A stretch of DNA of 64,000 nt from Sphaerolaimus hirsutus (Eukaryota; Nematoda; Chromadorea; Monhysterida; Sphaerolaimidae). Below are positions 22,901 through 63,962 of this stretch, in pieces. Below the pieces are notes generated by a model. The model worked only from the letters and a program-made list of their open reading frames with translations. It was not told the DNA's origin and made no database searches. The first letter of the stretch is position 1, and every line of letters begins with the position of its first letter. Location: contig OZ038457.1 of assembly GCA_964036195.1 (NCBI GenBank), positions 2,889,180-2,953,179 on the forward strand. Direction: 5' to 3'. The position numbers and the translations under genes were made by a program.

Positions 22901-25900
22901 AACTGCAAAAAAAACCATTCCCATACAGATCCGCCCCGGCGCGCCCTACGCCGCATGCCCTGCGCGCGGCCAACGCGGGCTCGGCGGCGCGACGCAACTT
23001 GTCGGCGCTGTACTCGTTGTCGCCGCTCAGCTCGGACAGCAAGCGATTGCTGCAGTCGCCGCGCACGCCCGCCAGGAAGGTCGCGCTGCAGCCGTACAAG
23101 GTGGGTGGGAAGCTTGTGTGCTGTTTCACGTGTATTTATATTAACATTGGGAGTTGTTTTCATTGTTTTTTTTGTCTCGATTTTTTATTTAGAATCATTT
23201 TTTAGAAAATACGAGATCATTTAAAAAAAACAACAACAAGGTCGTTTTTTACATCCCTACAGCCAAACCGAACCAACACACATTCATGATCCATCTTATC
23301 ATCCACAGACATTGGACGCGCCTCAACTAGCGGACGATTTCTACTGCGACGTGCTGCACTGGTCCGCCAGCGACCAGGTGGCTGTGGGGCTGGGCTCCCA
23401 GCTCTACTTGTGGAGCGCCGCCACCGCGCAGGTATGTTACTGTTGTTACTAGGGTTGGCCGATGTTTTTTAAACGTTTTTTATTATAAAAAAACGTTTTT
23501 TTTTAAAAAAACATGGCGTCCGAAATGTTTTTTTTTTTTAAAAACATCGACCAAAATTTTTAGTACTAAGCACTAGGTATTTTGCAAATTTTTTGGGCGC
23601 AAGCGCGCAATTTCACAGACAAATTGACATAGGTGGTTGTTTTAATTGGTTTTGTGGCATTTTTAGTATCAAAGTATCCATTTCTATGTGCTACCATGGG
23701 TTAATAAGCCGTCATATGTTGCTGTAGTATATAATATTGAGGTAATGTTGATCCATGTACCTCCACAGTGTGTAACTTCACTCCCAAAGTAGGGTTCAAA
23801 CGGGATCCCGATCCCGATCCCGGATCCCGTGAAATTCCGGGATTTACCAGTCCCGATCCCGATCCCGATCCCGAAACCCCAATCCCGATCCCGATCCCGA
23901 TCCCGAAATCTCAAAAATACCGATCCCGATCCCGATCCCGAAAGTTTTCAAATCCCGATCCCGATCCCGAGAAACTCCCAAGTCCGGGATCCCGATCCCG
24001 GAAAAATTAGTGGAAATTATAAAAAGTGAAATAATGACGTTTTTGCATGCAAAAAAGTGGATGCAAACCCCCAGTGTCAATTTTATGCCACTTTTCTGGC
24101 ATCCAACAGTGTTTTGAGACCTTTATGAACAACTGTGAATGCCAGAAAAATGGCCAAAATATCTATCCTTAGAACCCAATCCCGATCCCGGAAAAATGTC
24201 TATCCCAATCCCGATCCCGATCCCGTGACCCCAATCCCGGCCAATCCCGATCCCGATCCCGATCCCGAAATCTCAAAAAACCAATCCCGATCCCGATCCC
24301 GATCCCGAAACCCCAATCCCGATCCCGATCCCGAAATCTCAAAAAGTGAATCCCGATCCCGATCCCGAAAAGTCAATCCCGTTTGAACCCTATCCCAAAG
24401 TAACAACCTCGTTTTATAACCTTGTTTGATCACTATTCCATGCCAAACTTTACCTGAAGTCACAAACATTTGACTATAAGGCGATATACAAACAATATGT
24501 CGACGAAAAATGGATATTTTTGACACAAATCACCAGTTATAATGCTATCCCATGGCTCCACAGACATTATATGGTCATATATAACATCACAGAGTATTGC
24601 CACTGTCTGATATACCTATATATGTTGACACAAGGTCATATCTGGGAGCTTTAAAAAAAACACGTTTTTTTTAAAAAAAAAACGTTTTTTATAAAAAAAA
24701 ACGTTTTTTATAAAAAAACGTTGTTTTTTTAAAAAAACATCGAGTTAAAAAAAAACGTTTTTTTTCCAACCCTAGTTGTGACGATTGGATTGGATTTAGA
24801 TTGTGTTGGCTTGGTGCCAATTTTGCGAGTGGACAAGTGGTGGTTGATAAGTGGTGAATCAAGTGGACTTTTATTTTAATGGAAATTCAATTCAGGGGTT
24901 CAGTATCATGGTTCAGTTTAGTTCAGGGAGGGGGGGTTAAAGGACCACCCCTAAGCATTCCCAACAGGGGTCCTCCTAGGGGGGGGGGGTGGCTGGGGGG
25001 GGGCTGCCCCCCCCCCCAAATCGGCCAGCTATCTATCTATTCCCGGAGGCCGCTCAGCTATCTATCTATCCCGAGGCAAAATTTTTGGCTACTACCCCCA
25101 AAGACCCCCCCCCCCCCCAAATCGCTCAGCTATCTATCTATCTGGAGTGGTTTTTGAGAAATTTTGCCCCAATTTTCGCTCAAAATAACCAATTTTCGCA
25201 CCTTTTTATAGTTTTTCACCTTCAAAATCGTGCTTTCCGGCTATATACATGGTTATATACCTATTTTTAGCCATTTTATACCTAATTTTGGCTACTTTTA
25301 ACTGATTATTAGCGATTTTTTCCCCTTTCTGCCTTCTTAACCTTGAAAAAGCCTATATATTGTGCCCCCGCCAGCCCCCCCCCCAAGCCCCCCCCCCCAA
25401 GCCCCCCCCCAGCCCCCCCAGAAAAATTTTTCAGCTATCTATCCCTCCGGAGGAGCGATTTGCTATCTATCCGGCCCCCGCGAGGGCCAAAATCCTGGAG
25501 ACCCCTGATTCCCAAAAACAATATGTGAATTGAAATATATTTTTCATAAAACCCCCGAACCCGCGCCGAAACCCCGCCCCCCCCCCCACTGCAGACGCAC
25601 GCCTTAACCCCGTCCGACCAAGAGCTCCCTCACATCACCTCGGTACAATTCAACGGCACCGGAGAGCACCTAGCAGTGGGCACGCGCACCGGCTTGGTGC
25701 AGTTGTGGGACGTGCACGCGAGCGCCCCCCTGCGCACGTACAGGGCGCACACCTTGGTGCCGGGCAAGACCAGGGTGGGCAGGTTGGCCTGGAGTGGGAA
25801 CACGTTGTGCACTGCAGGGCAAGATGCCACCATGTGCACTATTGATGTGAGATGTCCTCATGTTGACACCTTCGATAGATTCTGCTATCATTCTCAGGTG

Positions 25901-28889
25901 GGTTTTGGGGGTTCTTTTTGGTGGGAGCGTTTTTTCGTGCGTTCTCGCGTCTGCTAATGTCGCCTAATTGTGAGTGTTGCGCAACACGTGAAGACGTACG
26001 AAGCTTGAAAAGGTCTATTTAGACACGCCTAGGGTACAAACGGGATGGCCTTTCCAGAAATGGATTGGAATTTTAATCTTTCGGGATCTAGATCGAGTGC
26101 CACGTGCTCGGGATTGTTTTGTTTGTATTTTCGGGATCGGGATTGAAATTATTGTCTTACGGAAAAAGGATCACGGTTCTGCGCCCTGTAAAATCTAAAT
26201 GTTTACGCATATTTGTTAAATCTCGAGTAAACCGTAAAATTCTCTATAAAAAGTTTCTTAATTTACGCGCAGGAAGTGTGCGGCGTGGCGTTCACACCGG
26301 ACGGCAGCACGGTAGCCTCGGGCAGCAACGACAACACTGTATGCATCTGGTCGACGCGCGGCGACAAGCGCACCCCCTTGCACGTGTTCGACGACCACTC
26401 GGCCGCCGTCAAGGCTATCGCGTGGCACCCCCACGAGAGGGGGGTGCTGCTCACTGGAGGGGGAACCAATGACAAGTCGTTGAGGATCAGGAATACTATC
26501 ACCATGCAACTGGTGCACACTGTGGACACTGGAAATCAGGTGGGAAAATGCTGGGGGTCTAGTCGATTTGAACCTCTGCGGGGGTTCATGTAGATGGTAA
26601 ATCGCTCCCCTCCCTGTGATAGATAGCTGGAAATATTTCTGGGGGCACGGGGTTCAATATATAGGGTTTTTTCAAGTGTAGATGTTTACATAGGTAGAAG
26701 GATCGCTTAAAAAAAGTAAAAATGTGTGGAAAATAGGTATATAGGCACATATTTATATACATTTTCAGCTACACGTCAATTGTAGCTGAAAATTGGCAAA
26801 ACTCTAGAAATCGTGAAAATTGAGTGGAAACGATTCCAGATGCCGTCTCGATGCTAAACTCAATTTTCGAAGTTTTATGGAACTTGACCCCTCATTTATC
26901 ACCCCCCCCCCCCAGGTGTGCAGCGTGCTGTGGTCGCCGGACGCGCGAGAGTTGGTCAGCGCGCACGGCTTCTCCACGAACCACTTGCTGCTGTGGCGCT
27001 ACCCACAGATGCAGCAGTTGGCCCAGTTGGCGGCGCACGCGCGCAGGGTGCTGTATTTGGTGAGTTCGCGGGGGAGTTGACTAGGGTTGGCCGATGTTTT
27101 TTTAAACGTTTTTTTTCAACGTTTTTAAAAAAACAAAACATGACGTCCGAAATGTTTTTTTTTATAAAAGAAACATCGGCCGAAATTTTTAGTACTAAGC
27201 ACTGGGTATGCAAGCACCGCAAGCGCGCAATTTCACACACAAATTGACATTTGTGGTTGTTTTCATTGGTTTTGTGGCATTTTTAGTATCAAAGTATCCA
27301 TTTCTATGTGCTACCATGGGTTAATAAGCCGTCATATGTTGCTGTAGTATATAATATTGAGGTAATGTGCTTCCATGTATCTCCACAGTGTGTAACTTCA
27401 CTCCCAAAGTAACAACCTCCTTTTATAACCTTGTTTGATCACTATTCCGTGCCAAACTTTACCTGAAGTCACGAACATTTGACTATAAGGCCATATACGA
27501 ACGATATGTCGACGAAAAATGGATATTTTTGACACAAATCACCACTTATAATGCTATCCCATGGCTCCACAGACATTATATGGTCATATATAACATCACA
27601 GAGTATTGCCACTGTCTGATATACCTATATATGTTGACACAAGGTCATATTTGGGAGCTTTTAAAAAAACATTTTTTATTAAAAAACGTTGTTTTTTAAA
27701 AAAAACATCGAGTTAAAAAACGTTTTTTTCCAACCCTAGAGTTGACCAAGTGATGGTAGTTGACGACTGTAGTTTTCGAAGGTGAATGGTTCTGTTTCGA
27801 TTCAAATTTGGCTCATATTCGGGATTTGGTAATGGATCATTTATGATATCTGTTTTTAGTAGTTAACGGATTCCTCACTCTAGTACAGGTAATTTTTTTG
27901 AGATTCAACTGAAACTCAGATTTATTGACCTTGCAAATTCTATTGTCAGCTTATGTTTGTGGAGGCAGTGGTACTAAAAAGTCTGTAAGGTGAAGTTTTC
28001 AATATGCGATATGGTTCGGCAGGGGTAACCAAAAAGGGGTGTTGGGTGGTTACCCCCAAAACGCTTCAGCTACTTTTACAAATTTCTACTTTCAGCAACT
28101 ACATTTTGAAAATTTAATTTACCGCAGCGTTTATTATCAGCTATCTGTCTATTACAGGCCCCTGTCAGCTATCTATGAATCCCTAGGTGAAATTTTTTGG
28201 CCCAACCCTCTATTTGTGAATTCGGTGCACAATTTTTCCGGTAATATGCGTGCATTTTTATCAGAAATTTTTTTTCGCAGGCGCTATCACCGGACGGGCA
28301 GTCGATCGTTTCGGGCGCCGCCGACGAGACGCTCAGATTCTGGAAAGTCTTCTCTGCACCGCATCGACGCACCGCAAACGTTTGTTTAAAGGGGGGGGGG
28401 GGGTCTCCGGTCTGATATTCTCTCCCAGGCACCAGGGGCTGGATTCAATTCAGTTCAAATTTAAGTTTCGGTGCCCGAATTGTGAATAAGTGAACGAAAT
28501 TGTGCACGTTACCTTCGTGTAGTGCACCTTACGTTGATTGAAGCTCGCCCTAGTGGTATGTTTACAAATTAGTTTGGGAACAGTTTGGTTACATCGAAAT
28601 TTGGGAAACTCGTAAATTTGTTTTGAACTCATTCGAATGAACCATAATGAATAATTTTTGATAGCTGACAACAGTAGTTGACAGACTTTTCATTCCGGTA
28701 AACTCGAATATTTTCAAAACAAATTTATTAATTTTTCAAATTTCGTTGGTGTACTAGTATGCGCGCATGCTCGTTTTGTAACTTTTTTTTATTACACTTA
28801 CATTTTTACACTTACATTTTTTCACTTTCTGCGACACCCCTTTCCAGGCGAGTCGTTCCCTATTAAATTTCTACGAAACTTTGAGATGA
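19973..28889 (+). CDS. fzr: Fizzy-related / Cdh1, WD40 co-activator of the APC/C
   Basis: Thirteen exons: 19973-20035, 20162-20224, 20648-20751, 21895-22045, 22201-22436, 22644-22754, 22929-23100, 23309-23431, 25595-25897, 26273-26539, 26916-27059, 28281-28379 and 28848-28889. They close in frame at 625 residues, against roughly 480-500 usual. The start MSNEYERRFL resembles the Cdh1 N-terminus. The C-box DRFIP is at residues 38-42, then ALIRNELLN (about 110), SPLSSDSKRLLQSPR before the propeller, and LDAPQLADDFY opening seven WD40 blades (about 301-612), with matches such as QEVCGVAF and AVKAIAWHPH. Cdh1 recruits D-box and KEN-box substrates to the anaphase-promoting complex. The linker between C-box and propeller is unusually long. 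The C-terminal dipeptide reads LR instead of IR. One intron uses a GC donor. Confidence 0.93.
21110..21777. mobile_element. C-type element C1 with AAGAGTTAAG body
   Basis: The ends are GTGCCGGTTCCGCAAGTGG and the inverted CCACTTGCGGAACTGGCCC. CAG flanks it (21107-21109 and 21778-21780). Its start with GT and end with CC match the introner-like group. The inner ends are long arrays of AGTTAAG. It lies within an intron of fzr and does not define one. Confidence 0.8.
21778..21869. mobile_element. Short D-type element
   Basis: It runs from CAGGGGTCTCC to GGAGACCCCTG and abuts the C1 element, with TGGATAGATGGATAGCTGG inside. It ends 25 bases before fzr exon 4. Confidence 0.65.
22046..22051 (+). 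promoter_or_regulatory. GC-type 5' splice donor of fzr intron 4
   Basis: The exon ends CAG and the intron opens GCGAGT. Only this boundary joins in phase 0 to the 22201 acceptor; the nearby GTTGTT would break the frame. GC-AG introns are a known minor class with otherwise strong donor consensus, as here. Confidence 0.7.
23450..24774. mobile_element. TAGGGT-type element with AACG/T-run ends, P1
   Basis: The ends are TAGGGTTGGCCGATG and CCAACCCTA, with subterminal arrays of AAACGTTTTTT. GTTGTTAC and GTTGTGAC flank it (7 of 8 match). E2 is inserted in its core. It lies in the fzr intron after exon 8. Confidence 0.85.
23790..24392. mobile_element. TAGGGT-type foldback element with ATCGGG body, E2
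   Basis: A perfect 8-bp duplication TCCCAAAG flanks it. The uninterrupted site CACTCCCAAAGTAACAACC exists in the sister element P2 near 27400, so both ends and the duplication are proved by an empty site in the same window. Confidence 0.95.
24965..25507. mobile_element. D-type hAT-like element, copy D4
   Basis: It runs from CAGGGGTC to GGAGACCCCTG with a perfect 8-bp duplication ATTCCCAA on each side. The body has repeated AGCTATCTATCTAT and long C or G runs. A B-type 5' end fragment (GTGCCAATTTTGCGAGTGG) lies just upstream near 24810. Confidence 0.88.
27082..27738. mobile_element. TAGGGT-type element P2, without insertion
   Basis: The ends are TAGGGTTGGCCGATG and CCAACCCTA, with a perfect 8-bp duplication GAGTTGAC. 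The core is nearly identical to that of P1, which provides the empty site for E2. It lies in the fzr intron after exon 11. Confidence 0.92.
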
Positions 28890-47581: not shown

Positions 47582-47770
47582 GTGCCAATCCCAGACCCTG
47601 TAAAAAGCTGTATAAAATGTAAAATGTCATGCAAAGTGTTATTACTCATGGAAAATGCATGGCAAAATGGCAACTTGGTTGCCATTTTGCAGGACATTTT
47701 CCATGACTTTTGACACTTTGCATGGCATTTTACATTTTACAGTGCTTTTTACAGGGTCTGGGAGTGGCCC
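47582..47770 (+). mobile_element. A-type element, copy A2
   Basis: It opens GTGCCAATCCCAGACCCTG and closes CAGGGTCTGGGAGTGGCCC, flanked by CTG. It abuts copy A3 and shares the central CTG with it. Confidence 0.85.
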
Positions 47771-47773
47771 CTG

Positions 47774-47963
47774 GTGCCAGTCCCAAGCCCTGTAAAGTGT
47801 AAAGTAAAGTGTCAAATGTTAAGTCAAATGCAAAGTAAAGTGTTGATCAAAACAAAAAAGAAAAGATTTTATTACTGAACTTTGCATGACAATTGACAGT
47901 TTACTTTGCATTTGACTTTACATTTCACTTTACTTTACACTTTACAGGGCTTGGGACTGCCCC
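47774..47963 (+). mobile_element. A-type element, copy A3
   Basis: It opens GTGCCAGTCCCAAGCCCTG and closes GGGCTTGGGACTGCCCC, flanked by CTG at 47771-47773 and 47964-47966. It belongs to a different sub-family from A2, as its inner ends match A1. Confidence 0.88.
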
Positions 47964-50857: not shown

Positions 50858-51034
50858 GTGCCAATCCCAGACCCTGTAAAATGTAAAACGTCATGCAAAG
50901 TGTCAAAAGTCAAGGAAAATGCCATGCAAAATGGCAACTCGTTTGCCATTTTGCAGGGCATTTCCCATGACTTTTGACAGTGTGCATGACATTTGACATT
51001 TTGCAGGGCTTTTTACAGGGTCTGGGACTGCCCC
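50858..51034 (+). mobile_element. A-type element, copy A5
   Basis: It opens GTGCCAATCCCAGACCCTG and closes CAGGGTCTGGGACTGCCCC, flanked by CAG (50855-50857 and 51035-51037). In an exon this copy would provide CAG|GT and CCCCAG splice sites. Confidence 0.88.
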
Positions 51035-53969: not shown

Positions 53970-54146
53970 GGGACACTCCCAGACCCTGTAAAAAGCCCTG
54001 TAAAATGTCAAATGTCATGGAGAGTGTCAAAAGTCATGGCAAATGCCGTGCAAAATGGCAACCAAGTTGCCATTTTGCAGGACATTTTCCATGATTTTTG
54101 ACACTTTGCATGACATTTGACATTTTACAGGGTCTGGGATTGGCAC
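53970..54146 (-). mobile_element. A-type element, copy A6 (inverted)
   Basis: Read on the minus strand it opens GTGCCAATCCCAGACCCTG and closes GGGAGTGTCCC, flanked by CAG. On the plus strand the flanks are CTG (53967-53969 and 54147-54149). Confidence 0.85.
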
Positions 54147-58624: not shown

Positions 58625-61600
58625 ATGGATTACATCCGAAGTTTCGACATTCGTTTAGAAAAAGACGTTTTCTACGCGGGAGAAACTTTACAAGGTCATG
58701 TTCTCATAGAGAATATTGAGAACATAAAAATCAGAGGTTATACTAGTTTGAGCTACCGTAATTTGACGAATAACTCTCCCATTAAGGCTTTTGAGTGAAA
58801 TTTCATGTAGCGGAAAATAGAGTAATTCCTAGAAATACCCCAGTAAATAAAGTACCAATATACCCACTTTCAAAACCCAGTTGATGTATAGGTTCAATTT
58901 AAAAAGCAGATAAAATATATCATTTTCACTTTTAATTCTATTTAGGTAGGTATTTACCTACCGTATTTCCTCGAAATACCCCCGGGGGGTTTATTGTTTC
59001 AGAGTGAGAATTTTGAGGGGGGGTTAAACGAGGGTGGGGTTTATTTTTTCGCCAGAAAATTTTTGAAATCCCAGTACTAAAATGTAGTCTGAAACGTACG
59101 CAGACGTCGAAAAATGCAACAAAAATCGCCATTTATAAGACTCTAAAGACATTTATAAGTGTGTAGACGTACAAACACTGTTCTCACATAACATCGTTTT
59201 TAACGTGTATTCTGCATTGTCGGGATGACAAACCACAGCCTTTGTCATTTACGTTATCTATACAGTAAATTTGGGGGGGGTATTTCGAGGGGGGGTTTAT
59301 AAGTTCTTAGTGTCCATTTTGAGGGGGGGTATTTCGAGGGGGGGGGGGGGGGGTATTTCGAGGGGGGGGGGTATTTCGAGGAAATACGGTATATCATAAA
59401 ACCTCATTTAAGTAGAAGGGTTTTTGTCGAGGTGAGGGTTGATTTTCCTCAGCTCTCTCAGACATTGGAGTATTTCGACAGGAAAATTTATTCAACGATT
59501 GGCAATTCGAAGGAATACAATATATCCAAAATTCAAATACCCCCCCCCCCCAAAAAAAAAACTATAAAAAAATTTAGGCATCCGCGTGCTACTGCGGGGA
59601 AAAGCTCACGCGGAATGGAAAATCATGAAATCGGGGGAACGACGCACAGTTAAGGATGACCAGTATCTGCTGGATGATAAAACTACAATCTGGGGGGTGG
59701 ACAAGCATGACGAGTCTGCCAGCAGCTACCAGGTGCCAATTCCTCAAGTGGATAAGTGACAGGTAAAGTGGTAAGTGCTGAGTTAAGTTGTGAGTGGTTT
59801 GTTGAGTGACAAGTTAATTTTCTGTAATTTAGTAGTAACATATTTGCTTGAATAATTCCCCCCTTAATAGTTACCCCTTTAGGTTTGTGATAAATTAATA
59901 AATCTGTTGTGGCCAATTTAAACAAAAAGACCATGTTACTTTGTTAATGATGAATATTTTGTGAAGTGAGGTGATATTGACAATTTTGAAAATATAATAA
60001 TCACCCCTTTGAATAGTTTCCCCATCAGAATTGTGTAATGACAAGATAATTTGCCAGGGAATGATTCAAGCAAATCTGGTCATTTACTTGTTATATTAAA
60101 GTTTGCTCATGACTGACTACCATGTCTCACTTGACATGCCACTTAACACTTTTCTTGTCACTTGTCAACTCGCGGCATTGGCCCAGGGCGCCGGCATCAG
60201 CAGTGTACCGATTTTGCCCAGGGGCATGCATAGGTTCCCTTTTGAGGTGAGTAGGGTGTCAAATTTCCGTTTTCCGTTTTCTGTTTCCGTTTTCCGCAGG
60301 CAAATTTTTTCCGTTTTCCGTTCCGTTTTCCGGCTGCTGAAATTTTTTTTCCGTTTTCCATTCCGTTTTCCAGCAACTTTTTTTCCGTTTCCGTTTTTCC
60401 GGCTCATTTTCCGTTTTCCGGCTCAATTTTCAGTTTTTCCGCCTTTTTTCCGTTTTCCGCCTCCATTTCCAGTTTTTCCGCCTTTTTTCCATTTTCCGCC
60501 TCAATTTTCCATTTTACCGCCTCATTTTACCCTCTTCTGGCTCAACTTTCTGTTTTCTGATCAGCCAAACTGGTAAAAATTCATGCAGATTGTCAATGAT
60601 GTGAAAAATTTTCTGTTTCCAACAAAATTACTGCAAATTTTTTCCACTTCCAGCAAAATTTCAGAACATTTTATCCGTTTTCCGGCAAAATTTCAGCAAG
60701 TTTTTCCATTTCCGTGCAAATTGGATTTTTCCGTTTCCGTTTTTCCGGCCTCTTTTTCCGTTTTCCGGCCGCTGAAATTTTTTTCCATTTCCGTTTCTGT
60801 TTTCCGCCAAGTGCAAATTTTTTTCCGTTTTCCGTTCCGTTTTCCGGCCGCTGAAATAATTTTTCCGTTTCCGTTTCCGTTTTCCGTAAAAAAAATTTTT
60901 TGACACCCTAGAGGTGAGTGAATTTTACTGTGATGCTGTTCTGTTAACTGACAGATAAAGTGACTAGGTAGGTGATATGTGAAAAATGACCATCTGTCAA
61001 TGCTTACTCATGCGTGTTGCAGGGTGCGGCACTGGTGCCTGATTACCACCTACAACTTTACTTATCACTTGCCATCTTCCTGTCACTTGAACACTTTCAG
61101 AAGCAGCACCAGCTTATTTACTTAGTGTTTGTCAATACCACAAGAAACAAACAAACAAACACACACTGTAAAAATAGATATGTGAAGTGTGTGTGTCTGT
61201 GCCTCTGTGAATAAACTATCACACCCTTCACGAAATTTTGACTGAAGTGTCTTCCACATCTTTTTCCAGCATCACAATAAACAAAATTCATGAAGCACAC
61301 TACACAAGCAATCAAGGCATACTTTGCATGGTTTGTGTAAAGTCGTGAAGCATCTGTCTGGAGCAAAATGACGTGCCTTCCCACTGATACTGCGTACCTG
61401 CGTGAAGACACTTCACAACACTTCACAGACCTTCATAACACTTCACTATGCATCACACATCCATTTTTTGCTGTGACAACAACAAGCCCAAACTTGTCTA
61501 CTCGCAGTTCGTCTTGCCGCAAACATCGCTGCCATGCAGTTTCGAGTCCAAGGCGGGCACCATCCGCTACTACATCAAGGTGGTCATCGACATTCCCTAC

Positions 61601-63962
61601 GCGTCCCCGCCGCAGGGCATCAAGTACTTCACCATTATTGGACCCAATATTGACTGCATGGATGAGAAGTATTTGGTTGGTAAATTGGCATTAATACCTG
61701 GTTTGCTCTGATTATTGTTACCGGTACCACCGCATCTAGAATTGGAACGTTCTCTACTTGTACCAGGCCCAGATCCTGTAAAATGTCATGCAAAGAGTCA
61801 AAATTTCATGTAAAACATCATGTGTAAAAGACCCTGTAAAGTGTCATGTAAAAACTCTATAAAGTGTCAAATGTGACGTAAAACGCTAAAAAACGTCTGT
61901 CGATCTAAAATACTTTACGTTTACACACCTATCTTATTGTACTTTAGTGTAGGGTTCAAACGGGATTGACTTTTCGGGATCGGGATCGGGATCGGGATTC
62001 ACTTTTTGAGATTTCGGGATCGGGATCGGGATCGGGATTGGGGTTTCGGGATCGGGATCGGGATCGGGAATGGTTTTTTGAGATTTCGGGATCGGGATCG
62101 GGATTGGCCGGGATTGGGGTCACGGGATCGGGATCGGGATTGGGATAGGCATTTTTCCGGGATCGGGATTGGGTTCTAGGGATAGAGATTTTGGCTATTT
62201 TTCTGGCATTCACAGTTGTTCATAAAGGTCTCAAAACACTGTTGGATGCCAGAAAAGTGGCATAAAATTGACGCTGGGGGTTTGCATCCACTTTTTTGCA
62301 TGCAAAAACGTCATTATTTCACTTCTTATAATTTCCACTAATTTTTCCGGGATCGGGATGCCGGACTTGGGAGTTTCTTGGGATCGGGATCGGGATTTGA
62401 AAATTTTCGGGATCGGGATCGGGATTGGTATTTTTGAGATTTCGGGATCGGGATCGGGATCGGGACTGGTAAATCCCGGAATTTCACGGGATCCGGGATC
62501 GGGATCGGGATCCCGTTTGAACCCTACTTTAGTGTACTTTAATACTTTAGTATCAACCCCCCCCCCCCCGCAGAACCCAATGGTAGGGGAAGAACGTCGC
62601 ACCGCATGTTGGCTGTGCTGCCGCAGGGGCCCAGTGACTCTGCGCGTGACGCTCGACCGCACTGCCTACGTGTGCGGCGAAAGAGTGCGCTTGCGTGCAG
62701 AATTGGACAATAGAACAGACACGCCCAGGACCCTCAGGATTAGGATCGTGCAGGTGCGAGGGGGTGACATTTTGTTGGGTGATTTTGGGGGGTCCAAAAA
62801 TGTAGAAATTTTGAGACGGAACATGATTGCACTAAAGTACTGGCAATTTTTACATCACTATTCCCAATCCTATTACACTTTCACATAGCCAACTCCAAAA
62901 AAAGCAATATAAAATTTCACCAAACCCCCACCCCCGCCCCCCCACAGAACGTGGAATACTTCATCGACAAGGGGGTGCTGGGGGTGAACAAGACCCTGCA
63001 CTACACTGTGGCTGAGCACAGGGCCGGGCACGTGGGGCCCTACGCGGCGGGCAGATACGACACGGGCGCCAGCCAGCCCGCCCTAACCCTACCCGTGGTC
63101 CCGCCCACTTTGGTGGGCGTGTGCAGGTCGGTCGATGGAATTGGGAGTGATTATGTACTTATTAGTGTCTATCAGTGGGGTGATGATCGTGGGGAAACAT
63201 TTGAAAAGTTTTGATAAGATTTATGGAGAAAAAAATCCAAATTTGAAACTTCACTTTGAAAAAATACATTAGAAACAGCGTTTATTTGTCTTTATAGTGT
63301 AAATGCTCCTCAACTCTCTCAATTCTCAAGCGACCCTCCAACCCACACAAATAAACAATCCCTGCTCAAATACAACCCCCACACACAGACTGGTGCAAAT
63401 CTACTATTCCCTAAAAGCGTGCGTGGAGACTGAGAAGGGGGATGATCTGCACATGGTGTTCCCATTCACGGTAGCCACGGTGCCCTTTCGCATTCCTAAC
63501 TCGCCCCAACAGCCCAATTTGGATTATGGTAGGCCAGGGGGGGGGCATTCTGTTGAATGTAGGTACAGTAGTTTTGTCTCGATTTTTACTCGTTACCGAT
63601 AAGTGCACTTGTCCCTTATAAGTTTAGCTATGACTTAACACTTTTGTTATTACTTGTCCACGTGCAGAATTGACCTGTACGAACTGTTGTTGTTTTTCAA
63701 GAGAAAGGCCATTTATTCATGCTATTTACTTCCTTGGCCTCTGTTAGCGTATACACCCTTCACACTTACAACCCTGCAAATCTATTTCTGCACATGCAAA
63801 CCAGTAAAAAAACCCATCCCTCATGAAATCCCAAAACCCAAACACTCCACCGCACTAGCAAACGCAGATTACTGCGCCGGGCACGTGGAAGGCGGCCAGT
63901 ACGTATCGCCCGAATTCCAACTGGGGCAGGTCTACGACGGGGGCGGCGGGGACGATGAGCAG
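58625..63962 (+). CDS. Alpha-arrestin, ARRDC family (3' end outside window)
   Basis: Eight exons: 58625-58736 (ATG), 59578-59732, 60187-60246, 61508-61675, 62574-62753, 62948-63126, 63389-63528 and 63868-63962. They total 363 codons in frame. The N-domain begins with FDIRLEKDVFYAGETLQGHV, the usual arrestin start, then IRVLLRGKAHAEW, LPRGMHRFPFEF and CSFESKAGTIRYYIKV. The C-domain begins about residue 180 with CCRRGPVTLRV and includes LVQIYYSLKACV and ATVPFRI; HVEGGQYVSPEF and LGQVYDG follow. Such proteins act as cytoplasmic adaptors that recruit NEDD4-family ubiquitin ligases to membrane cargo, usually through PPxY motifs in the tail, which would lie past 64000. Intron 2 is a B-type introner and the eighth intron starts with an A-type terminus. 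The donor of exon 3 carries a hAT-type insertion. Confidence 0.9.
58971..59389. mobile_element. F-type TIR element, TA-flanked
   Basis: The ends are CCGTATTTCCTCGAAATACC and the inverse, with an expanded G run near the 3' end. It lies in ARRDC intron 1. Confidence 0.75.
59733..60183 (+). mobile_element. B-type introner B2, forming ARRDC intron 2
   Basis: The exon ends TACCAG; the element opens GTGCCAATTCCTCAAGTGG and closes CAACTCGCGGCATTGGCC, followed by CAG (60184-60186) and the next exon GGCGCC. The CAG duplication supplies the acceptor AG. Removing 59733-60186 restores an uninterrupted arrestin frame. An F-type remnant lies inside (about 59838-60080). Confidence 0.88.
60252..60910. mobile_element. 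TAGGGT-type foldback element inserted on a splice donor
   Basis: The ends are TAGGGTGTCAAA and TTTGACACCCTA with a perfect 8-bp duplication GAGGTGAG (60244-60251 and 60911-60918). That octamer is the exon 3/intron 3 junction GAG|GTGAG. The body is CCGTTTTCCGTTTCCG repeats. Confidence 0.92.
61950..62526. mobile_element. TAGGGT-type foldback element with ATCGGG body, E3
   Basis: A perfect 8-bp duplication CTTTAGTG flanks it. The core with TTGCATGCAAAAACG matches E1 and E2. It lies 47 bases before ARRDC exon 5. Confidence 0.92.

Follow-up and report, generated by a model that had tools for sequence, protein, structure and literature searches.

We analyzed a 64,000-nucleotide stretch of the nematode Sphaerolaimus hirsutus (contig OZ038457.1, forward-strand positions 2,889,180 to 2,953,179), hereafter the window, which contains an ARRDC gene whose predicted second intron is filled by a transposable element. 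The host assembly comprises 348 Mb in 762 contigs, and its gene content is animal-like. The gene lies on the forward strand and contains exon 1 (58625..58736; ATG to ATC AGA G), exon 2 (59578..59732), which ends in phase 0 with TAC CAG, exon 3 (60187..60246; GGC GCC to TTT GAG), and exon 4 (61508..61675; TTC GTC to TAT TTG). Exon 1 was placed from the DNA and from its translation within the Pfam Arrestin_N match, exons 2 and 3 from the DNA, the Pfam match, and synonymous differences to another copy of this locus, located on contig C422, and exon 4 from the DNA together with Pfam and structure matches. When joined, the exons encode 165 residues that match Arrestin_N (E = 2e-31) and the structure chain 7usy_J, an ARRestin Domain protein (E = 2.1e-71) that we take to be from C. 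elegans.

An element that fills the predicted intron 2 of the ARRDC gene

Intron 2 (59733..60186, forward strand) consists of a 451-nt element (59733-60183) plus one CAG, and the flanks keep their frame when joined. The element starts GTGCCAATTCC, ends GGCATTGGCC, and has CAG on either side: the first CAG of this target-site duplication (59730..59732) is exonic, whereas the second (60184..60186) is the predicted 3' splice site and is followed by GGC. The element ends form an imperfect terminal inverted repeat (TIR) of about 45 nt, with a left arm at 59733..59777 and a right arm at 60139..60183 (forward strand, lengths approximate); the first two bases of the left arm, GT, are the putative 5' splice site. 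The ends of the wider family are GGGCCAATTCC-type, and the right end of the ARRDC element is one C short of many relatives. An earlier note on this DNA had described the intron as running from the first base of the element through the duplicated CAG, and the sequence is as it described.

The same note had proposed that excision of the element and one CAG gives back TAC-CAG-GGC in frame, a claim borne out by the Arrestin_N match and by the locus on C422. This divergent second copy is an allele or a recent duplicate and retains the element at 94% identity. All 13 differences between C13 and C422 in exons 2 and 3 are synonymous in the frame implied by intron 2 (11/11 in exon 2 and 2/2 in exon 3, one of them in the first codon after the CAG), which supports the predicted exon frame. 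C422 shares the GT, the two CAGs, and the first 11 nt of the element with the window copy. The site had further been placed in a conserved arrestin domain; it does fall inside the domain match, but within a loop with 9 more residues than its counterpart in 7usy_J, the nearest solved relative.

The description of the intron as a transposon holds for the TIR and flanking CAG copies, with one correction to the middle. A nested, unrelated miniature inverted-repeat transposable element (MITE) with worn TACCGTATTTGCTTGAATAATTC-type ends occupies approximately 59835..60085 (strand not assigned). Stretches within intron positions 119-354 match many places in the genome at about 70% identity, and the loci inspected carry TACCGTATTTGCTTGAATAATTC-type ends. 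This nested MITE is the later arrival and enlarged a founding element of about 200 nt to 451 nt. A length of about 200 nt lies toward the lower limit among its relatives: the 26 subtype-B elements span 182-863 nt, with 13 of them at 182-269 nt. We also considered whether the nested MITE changes faster than the element ends (20/250 versus 7/199 differences, p = 0.07) and do not claim this.

Intron 3 holds two further features of note. At ~60247-60910 the window copy carries about 660 bp of TCCGTTTTCC-rich sequence that the C422 copy lacks, and at ~61081-61112 a worn right end of the element type seen in intron 2 is followed by CAG.

The element family and its copies in other genes

The element belongs to a repetitive family. 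Its 14-mer CAGGTGCCAATTCC occurs 365 times in the genome and the longer subtype terminus CWGGKGCCARTTCCNCAAGTGGA 1,555 times, compared to no occurrences of the control pattern for either (reversed, in the case of the 14-mer), while CTGGTGCCAATTCC occurs 525 times, in some cases within 46-bp tandem arrays. The family comprises several internal-sequence subtypes that have the terminal 11 nt in common. From 98 fetched loci, several of them overlapping, and the window, we paired 47 elements with matching ends and CAG on both sides. Of 46 of these, 31 have C directly upstream of the first CAG, 22 have A one base further out, and 25 have G directly downstream of the second CAG; these preferences point to an ACCWGGT-like target of which CWG is duplicated. 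Element pairs sought without requiring CAG mostly carry CAG on both sides, and the triplet outside the terminus is CTG or CAG at 56 of the 100 unselected termini listed on C1, though not at the other 44. Among the 1,555 subtype termini, whose search pattern admits only GGG or GTG ends, 187 read CAG-GT and 211 CTG-GT, leaving 1,157 with GGG by subtraction.

The layout of a TIR element sitting on an exonic CAG recurs in other genes. In a CPT2-like gene (L018), the peptide joined across the element matches Carn_acyltransf (E = 1.4e-15), and its alignment to CPT2 structures (2h4t) continues across the joint without a gap there; the corresponding site in human CPT2 presumably lies within one long exon. 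A TFB1M-like gene (L067) carries two elements, and its RrnaAD match (E = 6.9e-9) runs through the joint of one of them. The PPP4R2 match at L026 (E = 1.3e-15) extends about 5 residues beyond the joint. At L042, in a zinc-finger gene, the joint is crossed by a finger that scores below the cut-off, and the one that scores above it is located elsewhere. Element ends therefore coincide with intron ends, as placed from the reading frame, in the ARRDC, CPT2-, PPP4R2-, and TFB1M-like genes. A further joined peptide (L004) resembled a potassium channel at E = 0.18 and was not used.

Frame statistics across the joints agree with these cases. Using 44 of the 47 paired elements, with both ARRDC locus copies included, the mean frame arm across the joint was 102, compared to 87 ± 5.6 with shuffled partners (2 of 1000 shuffles were as high), 92 with one-base offsets, and 75 on the other strand. 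In an earlier set of 30 elements, two of which were dropped for short flanks, sense frames exceeded antisense frames in 20 of 28. Joined frames were longer in the splice-competent (CAG) orientation than in the opposite one, whose end offers no AG (p = 0.048); these sets were small, as 14/22 CAG and 7/20 CTG pairs were used and the rest had no second duplication or were tandem copies. The flanks of all left ends (30 CAG and 21 CTG, with 9 array loci excluded) differed in GC content, at 0.445 in the opposite orientation versus 0.511 for CAG (p = 0.036), but upstream GC was nearly equal in the paired sets (0.502 for CTG, 0.515 for CAG), which counts against the GC argument. Together, the shuffle test and the CPT2 alignment through the joint indicate that excision restores the reading frame.

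Three other ideas about the family were abandoned. An asymmetry of GT as a sign of splicing selection appeared in sampled loci that were biased by picking and, at p = 0.03, in 80 listed rows, but the whole-genome counts give 187 versus 211. Sampled loci also hinted that subtype B is confined to the CAG orientation, which the wider counts contradict. A viral source was suggested by GTGCCAATTCCNCAAGTGGA in two viral contigs; we judged these matches to be chance because, by eye, both fall within a single open coding region and have no second TIR.

Other copies take different forms. The 46-bp tandem arrays, whose unit contains CTGGTGCCAATTCC, lie at C1:4860117-4860268, C1:14377581-14377732, and C2:14927828-14928025 (L076-L078 and L090-L095), and this satellite was apparently born from an element end. 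Within the window, two A-type elements stand back to back at 47582-47963 with one CTG in common, the terminal motif being followed by CCCAGACCC/CCAAGCCC, as if the target duplication of one had been the landing site of the other. The terminal layout is the same in further A-type elements at 50858-51034 and 53970-54146, and the longest joined frame seen there spans arms of 64 and 80 nt. Elsewhere in the window, the open reading frame list contains WD-repeat exons (~25676-26593) that we take to resemble a CDC20/FZR1-type gene.

Splice sites and the origin of intron 2

We consider it highly probable that intron 2 is an introner whose GT comes from the TIR and whose AG comes from a duplicated target resembling the proto-splice site CAG|G. 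A nonautonomous TIR MITE with a CWG duplication, NuwaI/PIF-Harbinger-like in character, would have inserted at a CAG in an ARRDC exon. The GT of its left TIR would supply the 5' splice site (CAG|GTGCC), and the duplicated CAG behind its right TIR the 3' splice site, next to a right end that in subtype B is pyrimidine-rich and AG-poor. Excision of the element with one CAG would give back the old frame, so the copy would persist as an intron, and the second MITE would have inserted into it afterwards. The right end has the composition expected in this model: the subtype-B pyrimidine tract is 70% pyrimidine, and the AG-free stretch before the terminal CAG has a median of 65.5 nt across the 26 elements (both ARRDC locus copies included), compared to about 11 nt when whole elements are shuffled and about 22 nt when the last 50 nt are.

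Several observations weigh against this interpretation. The intron ends were placed from the reading frame, and a joint within a variable loop cannot be pinned to a single residue by protein comparison. Only 4 of 20 hand-picked joined peptides passed the curated Pfam cut-off, with 3 of the 4 matches crossing the joint. The second joint at L067 falls within a 13-residue stretch that is not in the human TFB1M-type chain (E = 5.2e-4, best stretch 0.0061). An element-free orthologue or allele was not found: C422 carries the element, and the collection searched holds no relatives of this genome. Three quarters of the 1,555 subtype termini have no GT, and genome-wide GT is no commoner beside CAG than beside CTG; the family overall therefore resembles an ordinary MITE. 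The expectation that the element would be found at many intron borders is thus realized only in part, with some copies at exon junctions, and the most economical interpretation is that the family is an abundant MITE with a minority of copies used as introns. Finally, the donor CAG|GTGCCA matches the usual donor (GTRAGT) weakly, and GTAAAG and GTAAGT, 30 and 38 nt inside the element, look stronger.

Splicing could accordingly start from one of these internal donors in the left TIR (GTAAAG at 59763 or GTAAGT at 59771), and many relatives do carry a GTAAGT-like sequence in the left TIR. We regard such use as very unlikely at this locus, given that either donor leaves an in-frame TGA in the window copy and that C422 has a 1-nt deletion between the GT and the internal donors. 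Of the four donors compared (59733, the nearest upstream GT, 59763, and 59771), only 59733 leaves the frame open in both copies.

A somewhat less remote, though still improbable, alternative is that an old intron received a MITE, with the match between element and intron ends being accidental or the old ends having been lost. In its favor, no intron-less orthologue turned up in the collection searched, and the 9 extra residues of the loop relative to C. elegans make the old borders hard to place. However, both ends of the element meet frame-keeping exon ends to the base, and the nearest upstream GT (GA|GTCTG) is abolished in C422 by a synonymous GAG to GAA change. The same coincidence of ends is observed in the CPT2-, TFB1M-, and PPP4R2-like genes, which further favors insertion of the element as the source of the intron.

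Intron 2 with its flanks folds strongly (z-score -4.1; 0 of 100 shuffles as stable), in part through the inverted repeat of the nested MITE. This folding may bring the splice sites together, and help from pairing is plausible because the donor is weak; alternatively, it may indicate SOS splicing, which recognises inverted repeats. The mRNA would then lose the element through recognition of its inverted repeats and ligation of the RNA, independently of the spliceosome. A review documents the removal of DNA transposons from animal mRNA by SOS splicing (PMC13247085). We assign this route little probability, since a GT, an AG, and a pyrimidine-rich, AG-poor right end are unnecessary for SOS splicing. 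Spliceosomal splicing at 59733 and 60186 thus remains our preferred model.

Comparison with known systems

Within the library searched, we found no paper treating introners, Harbinger elements, and MITEs together. SOS splicing, as reviewed (PMC13247085), combines endonuclease excision with RTCB ligation, whereas intron 2 would be removed by the spliceosome.

The transposon group can likely be named. DDE_Tnp_4, which we take to be the HARBI1-type domain, has at least 163 matches in the genome. The 15 matches listed on C1 all lie more than 16 kb from any listed terminus, both lists being incomplete, and a transposase partner was not found by this comparison. Many of the listed matches have near-equal scores and, as at C7:3244940-3245572, about 4 TGA across 633 bp, a pattern suggestive of a transposase gene that contains an intron and was amplified recently. 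As described (PMC4482050), the NuwaI group of PHIS (PIF/Harbinger, ISL2EU, Spy) occurs only in animals and has a CWG duplication, TIRs of 12-61 bp, and first three bases that are usually GGG. The family described here is similar in its CWG duplication, ACCWGGT-like target, and GGG/GTG ends (GGG in 1,157 of 1,555 termini, by subtraction), and likely corresponds to NuwaI-type (PIF/Harbinger-related) MITEs.

Introners, as characterized in a 2022 survey (Gozashti et al., 2022; PMC9860276), are repeats with TIRs and target duplications exactly at intron borders; splice sites are split between element and duplication, and excision usually preserves mRNA length. The survey reports introners in only two animal groups, with copepods among the bearers. 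A transposon that supplies splice signals is a seldom seen route of intron gain in animals. The TIR introner layout at the ARRDC locus is alike, with GT given by the left TIR and AG by a 3-bp CAG duplication. It differs in that family-wide counts are those of an ordinary MITE and that splicing is deduced from the frame. The nested insertion and the divergent second copy additionally show how such an intron ages.

Unlike the usual GGG of NuwaI elements, the named intron copies have a left end of GTG. We tentatively suggest that the ACCWGGT preference, with CWG duplicated, might correspond to the proto-splice site CAG|G, such that each GTG-ended element landing on the CAG side would become a ready intron. 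If this is true, a single-base change from GGG to GTG would make an intron maker of an ordinary NuwaI-type MITE, and the classic proto-splice motif around introns would be a transposon footprint in such lineages. Which single changes make a common MITE an intron source thus becomes a testable question.
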